A stretch of 64,000 nt of DNA from positions 60,037 to 124,036 of the forward strand of contig CAJOHO010000003.1 in the NCBI GenBank assembly GCA_905234555.1, written 5' to 3'. Positions 53,946-56,076 of this stretch are shown here, piece after piece (positions within the stretch are counted from its first letter, which is position 1; every line of letters begins with the position of its first letter). Position numbers and translations under genes: made by a program. The stretch comes from an uncultured Bacteroidaceae bacterium. Lineage in GTDB: Bacteria; Bacteroidota; Bacteroidia; Bacteroidales; Bacteroidaceae. Under the pieces are notes generated by a model. That model was not told where the DNA came from, made no database searches, and saw nothing but the letters and a program-made list of their open reading frames with translations.

Positions 53946-54872
53946 TTACAGCCACTGACGTTTCCGGAACCACATCCAGGAGAGGATGGTGGTGATGATG
54001 GACAGGACGATGGCGATGGGGAAGCCTAATGCCCACGACTCCATGCCGTTGATGAGGTTCATGCCGAAGATGGAGGCGATGAGGGTCGGGAACATGATGA
54101 TCATGTTGAGCGACGTGAGCAGACGCATCACTCGGTTCATATTGTTGTTGATGACGTTGGCGTAGGTGTCCATCGTGGCATTGAGGATGTTGGAGTAGAT
54201 GGCTGTGGTCTCACGTGCCTGGTTCATCTCGATATTGACGTCCTCGATGAGTTCGGCATCGAGTTCATCGACAGGCAGACGGAACTTCAGCTTAGAGAGC
54301 AGGGTCTCGTTACCACGAATGGATGTGGCGAAGTAGGTCAGACTGTCCTGCAGGCGTGAAAGGCTCACGAGGTCTTTGTTGTCAATCTGTCCTTCTATAT
54401 TCCGCTTGGCTTTCTCGATGAGTCCGCTGACCTGCTTCAGATACTTCAGATACCAGACGGAAGCAGACAGGAAGAGGCGGAAGACGAGGTCGGCTGCATC
54501 GCTGAATCCTTCGGCCCGTCGCTGCTGGTGGTTGATAAAGTCAATCATCATGCGGGTTTCCTGATTGCAGATGGTGATGATGACGTCTTTCTTGATGACC
54601 ACACCCAAGGGGATAGTGGTATAGGGGGCACGGGAGTTCACACTTTTGAGGTGGGGAATACGCAAGATGACCATGAGCCACCCTTCGTCCATATCGTAAC
54701 GTGCACGCTCGTCGGCATCGGCTACGTCGGAGAGGAAGTAGTCGGGCATGTGAAGTTCGTTCACCAGGTAGTTCACATCGTCCTCCACGGGACAGGTCAC
54801 CTGCACCCAGCAGTTTGGCTGCCAGGCATCCATAGGCTTAACGCCATTGGTTGTGTTCCAAAATGTACGCAT
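53946..54872 (-). CDS. corA: CorA-family magnesium/divalent cation transporter
   Basis: MRTFWNTTNGVKPMDAWQ... to ...IFGMNLINGMESWALGFPIAIVLSIITTILSWMWFRKRQWL; GMN motif (FGMN); ORF opens at 54953 but ATG 54872 is preferred. Confidence 0.93.
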   Translation of the reverse strand: MRTFWNTTNGVKPMDAWQPNCWVQVTCPVEDDVNYLVNELHMPDYFLSDVADADERARYDMDEGWLMVILRIPHLKSVNSRAPYTTIPLGVVIKKDVIITICNQETRMMIDFINHQQRRAEGFSDAADLVFRLFLSASVWYLKYLKQVSGLIEKAKRNIEGQIDNKDLVSLSRLQDSLTYFATSIRGNETLLSKLKFRLPVDELDAELIEDVNIEMNQARETTAIYSNILNATMDTYANVINNNMNRVMRLLTSLNMIIMFPTLIASIFGMNLINGMESWALGFPIAIVLSIITTILSWMWFRKRQWL

Positions 54873-54875
54873 AAT

Positions 54876-54963
54876 GTTCTGTTCTTTGTTTTCCCTGCGA
54901 CAGTAGGCAGGCACAGTAAATAATCCAGAATAAGCAGCTGGGCTGCGTGGCAAAGAACAGAAC
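54876..54963 (-). ncRNA. Candidate cis-regulatory RNA in the corA 5' leader
   Basis: Perfect 13-bp stem gttctgttctttg (54876-54888)/caaagaacagaac (54951-54963) enclosing GCAGC/GCTGC and CCTGC/GCAGG hairpins. Confidence 0.55.
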
Positions 54964-54977
54964 TCGGTGGTCCTATC

Positions 54978-55019
54978 CTAAGCCTTCAACTGAATACTAT
55001 TCGCCGGATAGTCGTCCAT
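54978..55019 (-). CDS. Candidate 13-aa leader peptide (uORF) upstream of corA
   Basis: ATGGACGACTATCCGGCGAATAGTATTCAGTTGAAGGCTTAG = MDDYPANSIQLKA*. Confidence 0.4.
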   Translation of the reverse strand: MDDYPANSIQLKA

Positions 55020-55083
55020 GTTTTTTCTCTATTTATATTTTGTTTATCCCTGCGGTAACCGAAGGGTGTATTGAAAATCGCTG

Positions 55084-55091
55084 CAAAGTTA
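55084..55091 (-). promoter_or_regulatory. -7 element TAACTTTG for corA
   Basis: Forward CAAAGTTA, 11 nt downstream of the pfkA stop. Confidence 0.6.
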
Positions 55092-55101
55092 CGAAAAAAA
55101 A

Positions 55102-56076
55102 TTAAATTGACAAAGTATCGAGCACTTTTATCAAGTTTTTATTCATCGGCTTATCGCTGCGGATGGCGTCGGTAAAGGGGATATAGACCACCTGATCGTT
55201 GCGAACGCCTATCATCACGTTGCGCTGTCCGTCGATGATGGCGTCGATGACGCCTGAACCCAGACGAGTGGCAAGGATGCGATCGCGTGCCGAGGGGCTA
55301 CCGCCTCGCTGAAGATGCCCCAGGATGGACACTCGCACATCGTACTGTGGGTATTCCTTCTTGACGCGGTCAGCATAGAACATGGCTCCGCATTTGGGGC
55401 TTTCGCTCACGATGACGATGCTGGAGTTCTTGCTCTTGCGTATGCCTCGTCCGATGAAATGCTCCAACTGGTCGGCATCGGTGCTGTCCTCTGGAATGAT
55501 GGCTGCCTCTGCCCCACTGGCGATGGCGCTGTTCTGAGCGAGGAAACCTGCATCGCGTCCCATCACCTCGACGAAGAAGATGCGCTCGTGGCTGGTGGCT
55601 GTATCTCGAATCTTATCGACACACTCGACGATAGTGTTGAGAGTGGTGTCGTAACCGATGGTGAGGTCTGTGCCGTAGAGGTCGTTGTCGATGGTTCCAG
55701 GCAGACCGATGCAAGGCACGTTGAACTCCTGCGCAAAGAGATGGGCACCTGTCAGCGATCCGTTTCCGCCAATCACGACCAGAGCATCGATGCCTTCCTT
55801 TTTCATCGTCTCGTAGGCCTGTGCTCGTCCTTCGGGCGTCATGAACGCCTTGCTACGGGCACTTTTCAGGATGGTTCCACCACGAGCAATGATGTTGCTC
55901 ACGCTCTCTGTGGTAAACTCAGCCACCTCGTCGGTCATCAGTCCTTCGTAGCCACGATAGATTCCTTTCACCTTGAAGCCGTGGGCAATGCCTGTGCGTG
56001 TGACAGCACGGATGGCTGCGTTCATACCTGGGGAGTCGCCGCCAGAAGTCAAAATACCGATACAGTTGATTTTCAT
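55102..56076 (-). CDS. pfkA: ATP-dependent 6-phosphofructokinase
   Basis: 324 aa; [40 protein letters not shown]. Confidence 0.97.

Follow-up and report, generated by a model that had tools for sequence, protein, structure and literature searches.

In translational attenuators of the Erm and Cat type, stalling of a ribosome covers a first leader segment and exposes the downstream ribosome-binding site. The closest described systems in front of Mg2+ transporter genes are mgtL and corL, the upstream open reading frames (uORFs) in the leaders of mgtA and corA of Salmonella and Escherichia coli (PMC11552253, PMC11282234). Early acidic residues, including the EPDP of MgtL, destabilise ribosomes (PMC11282234, PMC11552253). 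In E. coli MgtL, these early acidic residues and prolines lead to ribosome drop-off at low Mg2+, which is counteracted by EttA, and a di-acidic motif alone is insufficient for destabilisation (PMC11282234). The expression of corA is inversely related to the translation of corL, and both enteric leaders use Rho (PMC11552253). The open-access literature searched yielded no account of a leader peptide ahead of Bacteroidetes corA or mgtE genes, nor of how Bacteroidales regulate Mg2+ uptake, and the main text of a B. thetaiotaomicron transcriptome atlas mentions neither corA nor leader peptides.

Here, we examined the leader of a corA gene in a 64,000-nt stretch of contig from an uncultured Bacteroidaceae bacterium (the window), which an initial annotation had described as a candidate metal-responsive RNA with an architecture resembling that of an aptamer. 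With a probability of about two in three, we read it as a translational attenuator controlled by a leader peptide, with low Mg2+ as the presumed signal. The attenuator architecture is well supported, and it is most likely the progress of the ribosome on the uORF that decides whether the channel is made.

Layout of the corA leader

The elements of the locus, with the basis for each assignment, are as follows.

55111-55114, minus strand: putative -33 element TTTG, inside the end of pfkA (sequence; 19 nt before the -7 element)
55084-55091, minus strand: -7 element TAACTTTG of the corA transcript (sequence; TAnnTTTG counts in relatives)
54978-55019, minus strand: uORF opening with ATGGACGACTATCCGGCGAATAGT..., translated MDDYPANSIQLKA, the candidate leader peptide, with its TAG stop at 54980-54978 (conserved at corA loci; single copy in the genome)
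54969-54980, minus strand: segment A, TAGGATAGGACC, which begins at the uORF stop codon and pairs with B (folding and triple scan)
54951-54963, minus strand: segment B, GTTCTGTTCTTTG, the 5' strand of the stem annotated initially, with A or C as partner (folding, triple scan and covariation)
54889-54950, minus strand: B-C loop with the two hairpins annotated initially, not conserved (absent from the nearest relatives and other families)
54876-54888, minus strand: segment C, CAAAGAACAGAAC, the 3' strand of the same stem, over the corA initiation region (sequence, folding and covariation)
53946-54872, minus strand: corA, the regulated gene, for a CorA-type Mg2+ channel of 308 aa (homologues; named from similarity and the C-terminal GMN motif)

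The -7 element is present as annotated, and transcription of corA is predicted to start near 55078. In 116 of 127 relatives, the 120 nt ahead of the uORF contain an element of the form TAnnTTTG, compared to about 8 expected from shuffles, at a median distance of 31 nt; the uORF is therefore probably close to where the transcript begins. From a TTG at 54953, the reading frame is open up to the corA ATG (54953-54873), which formally allows for a CorA with an N-terminal extension; the homologues align from the ATG.

The 13-bp stem that had drawn attention to the leader is real. Its arms, B and C, match perfectly, and only the 3 nt ATT (54875-54873) lie between the 3' arm and the corA ATG at 54872. 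By a rough count, a perfect inverted repeat of this length is expected about 3e-4 times per ~200 nt. Both internal hairpins also appear when the 101-nt sub-leader (54970-54870) is folded, at -32.4 kcal/mol (z -4.0; 1 of 200 shuffles equally good). Taken as a whole, the leader has no exceptional stability (z -1.2), and the stem is missing from its minimum-energy and centroid folds, where the 5' arm instead pairs with AGGATAGGAC just upstream, a segment that itself directly follows the uORF. The stem makes up half of a larger arrangement that had so far gone unnoticed.

Under the riboswitch reading of the initial annotation, the 13-bp stem would close the multiloop of a metal-binding aptamer. 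The stability of the stem and its two hairpins in the sub-leader speaks for such a structure, but the hairpins are gone in the nearest relative (L009/L172, 94% CorA identity) as well as in other families, the length of the B-C loop varies widely, and its sequence is unconserved. Rfam searches at gathering and permissive (E<=10) thresholds returned only tRNAs and chance microRNA and DnaX matches, and neither the M-box (RF00380) nor the mgtA leader (RF01056), with which a comparison had been suggested, was among them. The conserved core of the leader is instead a coding uORF, and an aptamer is extremely unlikely; we rejected it because the internal hairpins are unconserved.

A conserved uORF upstream of corA

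An MDD uORF of <=30 codons within 300 nt was found ahead of corA at 73 of 74 loci but upstream of only 1 of 239 other genes. These 74 loci were fetched by the CorA protein alone and are thus unbiased, whereas a wider set of 133 distinct corA leaders, 127 of which have an MDD… uORF, was partly chosen by the uORF pattern and is biased to that extent. At the sole exception among the 74, L029, the start of the uORF is lost. The leader of L029 is nearly identical to that of L065 apart from the deleted uORF start codon, which makes it either a natural mutant or an assembly error. The pattern occurs in a single copy in the window's genome and is present in 47 of 201 genomes of the family, with no matches to a reversed control pattern; order-wide matches include genuine gene starts (L201, L212 and L220) and are no evidence by themselves.

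The uORF varies in the manner of a coding sequence, with insertions of whole codons and with substitutions that alter amino acids (MDDSYPATS, MDDYHAEN and MDDPYSRE). Besides MDDYPANS and the first two of these, the variants include MDDYSANS, MDDYYPEN and MDDYLTEN, and Bacteroides-like genera carry MDDSNPRTYS, MDDPNPRTYS or MDDPYSREQ before a CorA that is only ~42% identical. The peptides are 8 to 19 residues long, and Y4 is kept in 118 of 127. A conserved peptide, codon-wise variation and a conserved stop position together point to the short uORF of a leader-peptide attenuator. Codon 2 (window 55016-55014) is GAC in 126 of 127 leaders, while codon 3 is freely GAT or GAC, and codon 6 (window 55004-55002) reads NCG in 123 of 127, irrespective of the residue encoded. 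Codons 2 and 6 thus appear to be constrained at the nucleotide level, for which the peptide alone offers no explanation.

A simpler role for the uORF would be to load ribosomes for reinitiation at corA, or to uncouple corA from pfkA, with no sensing involved. Short leader genes are able to raise downstream translation, and reinitiation in Bacteroidetes favours stop-to-start distances of 11-14 bp (PMC4833913). The distance from the uORF stop to the corA start is mostly 54-110 nt, and up to 215 nt, and neither the A/B/C switch nor the conservation of the first codons would be explained, making this role very unlikely.

Alternative pairings over the corA start

Segments A and C share a complement, B, and the A:B and B:C pairings are mutually exclusive. 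The letters differ in other clades with the relation intact, as in the A/B/C triples GGATAAGACTCA / GAGTCTTTGC / AGCAAAGGTTCA, AGAATAGAGGC / TCCTCTATTC / TATGGAGGAT and TCCGGAGGCC / TTGCCTCTGG / ACGGAGGCAAC. The segment C of many families is a genuine GGAGG Shine-Dalgarno sequence, and in every well-resolved clade, either the start codon or the GGAGG lies under C, which is the alternative pairing over the initiation region that characterises leader-peptide attenuators.

The stem beside the AUG is under selection. In an unfitted alignment of 33 leaders, the B:C helix covaries, with 97.2% of cells paired (23-48% in a slid control), 13 changes on both sides and none of 500 shuffles as high. Covariation of A:B was weak on fixed MAFFT alignments, partly because the helix slides between clades. 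Such alignments being poor for A:B, we adopted a per-leader shuffle test in which the joint score of a triple is that of the weaker of its two helices, compared to dinucleotide-preserving shuffles at p<=0.05. By this test, the triple was significant in 93 of 127 leaders, with about 6 expected (median z -3.0), and in the window's own leader (p=0.02). Most of the genomes are metagenome assemblies. Leaders of closely related species are not independent, and a non-redundant set was therefore used as well, in which 27 of 43 were significant (Fisher P 1e-27), compared to 3 of 36 control leaders of other window genes. The scan was not significant for four genus-mates with expanded leaders (L103, L104, L173 and L174). 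In L010, L011, L012 and L017, of the window's genus, 130-215 nt follow the uORF, and A/B/C appears to be duplicated, with C farther from the start.

In the middle half of leaders, segment A starts -1 to +6 nt from the first base of the uORF stop codon. Such a constant position of A at the stop, despite the varied length of the peptide, is what would be seen if A had to be covered by ribosomes completing the uORF. Partition-function folding of the window leader in the absence of a ribosome gave probabilities of 0.81 for A:B and 0.19 for B:C. An in silico ribosome footprint on the uORF stop changed this to 1.00 for B:C, and a footprint on the early codons gave 0.98 for A:B. The corresponding probabilities that the corA start is unpaired were 0.57 for the free leader, 0.37 with a stop-bound ribosome and 0.57 with an early ribosome, so the predicted shift in access to the start site is moderate (0.57 to 0.37, window leader). 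Over 93 leaders, the simulated stop-bound ribosome reduced access to the start region in 56 and increased it in 9 (P 3e-10). From this footprint modelling, completion of the uORF is predicted to repress corA, and an early stop or failure to start to permit its expression.

The regulation could also be transcriptional, either through intrinsic termination at the A:B hairpin or through Rho acting on the leader, for which the enterobacterial mgtA and corA leaders are a precedent (PMC11552253). In some clades, a U-rich stretch follows the A:B hairpin, and T5 is found <=14 nt past B in 23 of 93 leaders. The window leader and most families are without a U-tract, and the position of C over the start codon or GGAGG fits translational control, so that we find a transcriptional mechanism quite unlikely. 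An attenuator responding to amino acid starvation was considered and rejected, there being no runs of one amino acid's codons in the uORF peptides and T5 in so few leaders.

The uORF and switch are found before corA in many Bacteroidales families and in some outside the order, the latter at L303 (MDDYPADGNQRVKP), L304 and L305, with triple p values of 0.007-0.033. A similar uORF and triple (p=0.003 each) are also found ahead of mgtE, whose product is a Mg2+ channel with no homology to CorA; this applies to 4 of the 11 genes in one divergent subfamily. These uORF peptides are MDDVPGYIKQVY, MEEDPYRSYSREKETMC, MKDDPYSCCLINH and MDEGPYSSKN, with the starts MDDVPGY, MEEDPY, MKDDPY and MDEGPY. None of about 37 canonical mgtE genes (HPADIAE type) had the uORF layout, and no such uORF was found before CNNM/CorB genes at loci with a recovered gene start. 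A MDDYHAERQ… ORF upstream of a CNNM/CorB-like gene (L242:1480-1620) may be due to chance. At L241:1000-2800, a MDDYHAENATS… uORF overlaps the start of ksgA, with the corA-family gene next, making it the leader of a two-gene operon. Other Bacteroidia corA genes (L310, L312 and L319, also L316 and L318) have an out-of-frame ATG 7 nt upstream (ATGGACGATG). The predicted peptides, MDDDN…, MDDDQH… or MEDDPD…, would be read from a frame that overlaps the corA start, possibly a second form of acidic uORF.

The proposed signal and comparison with known systems

In the mechanism that we propose, ribosomes would translate the 13-codon uORF (MDDYPANS…). If the uORF is empty of ribosomes, or if a ribosome halts or is lost within its first codons, A would pair with B, leaving C free and corA translated. 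A ribosome reaching the uORF stop would cover A, and a B:C helix would then form over the site of corA initiation and turn corA off, translation of the uORF thereby acting as the repressing event. At low cytosolic Mg2+, ribosomes would abort on the acidic N-terminus through intrinsic ribosome destabilisation, as in E. coli MgtL, and corA would be switched on. Mg2+ is the likely common factor because the element precedes both corA and mgtE, two unrelated Mg2+ channels, and destabilisation is the most economical explanation since two acidic residues follow the initiator Met, often with a Pro after them. A point against it is that MDD is less extreme than the acidic and proline runs demonstrated to destabilise ribosomes. 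Of 21 relatives examined, 11 have an EttA homologue (TIGR03719) that scores above the cut-off.

The same attenuator might respond to something other than Mg2+, with MDD(Y/S/P)-(P/H/Y) as an arrest peptide for another ligand, an antibiotic, polyamines or general translation stress. Early stalling would yield the same ON logic, and the conservation of Y4 and of codons 2 and 6 exceeds what acidity demands. A metal-independent signal would give no reason for the choice of corA and mgtE, however, and we assign this alternative a low but appreciable likelihood. With Mg2+ as the most plausible signal, the metal response envisaged in the initial annotation is kept, and so is its conserved cis-regulatory corA leader, undescribed in the papers and the Rfam copy searched. 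The ligand-binding RNA is not, since what is conserved is a leader peptide and an A/B/C switch.

More broadly, the chances seem to us evenly balanced that Bacteroidota have their own widespread ribosome-based Mg2+ sensor, in which a peptide with an acidic start (MDDYP, MDDYH, MDDSNP or MEEDPY) that aborts at low Mg2+ is joined to a translational switch, independent of the enterobacterial mgtL and corL and fitted to corA and divergent mgtE. If this is true, Mg2+ sensing via ribosome stability is no enterobacterial peculiarity, and the natural variation of this candidate destabilising peptide, with more than 100 versions to hand, would make it directly testable what sequence confers Mg2+ sensitivity on the ribosome. 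Tractable gut Bacteroides carry the MDDSNPR version before corA and are thus amenable to such work.

Among the described systems, Erm- and Cat-type attenuators resemble this leader in placing, after a leader peptide, segments that mask or release a downstream ribosome-binding site in alternation. The difference is that the first segment here lies at the uORF stop, so that completion of the uORF is predicted to cover A and repress. The M-box (ykoK) riboswitch likewise controls Mg2+ transporters from a 5' leader, but the leader studied here has no match to it at E<=10 and no conserved aptamer, and control resides in a putatively translated uORF. The likeness to mgtL and corL extends to a uORF in the leader of a Mg2+ transporter gene, to two mutually exclusive leader structures (here A:B and B:C) and to an inverse relation between uORF translation and expression, which was demonstrated there and is suggested by modelling here; with mgtL it shares acidic and proline residues early in the peptide (here MDDYP). 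In contrast to those systems, which expose a Rho site, the start site is occluded here, sequence and structure are unrelated (RF01056 is matched at neither threshold), and the MDDY/MDDP/MDDS peptide is conserved over many Bacteroidota families and is also found before mgtE. By function, the leader is like mgtL and corL, but by sequence, structure and output, the occlusion of a start site, it lies outside that RNA family.
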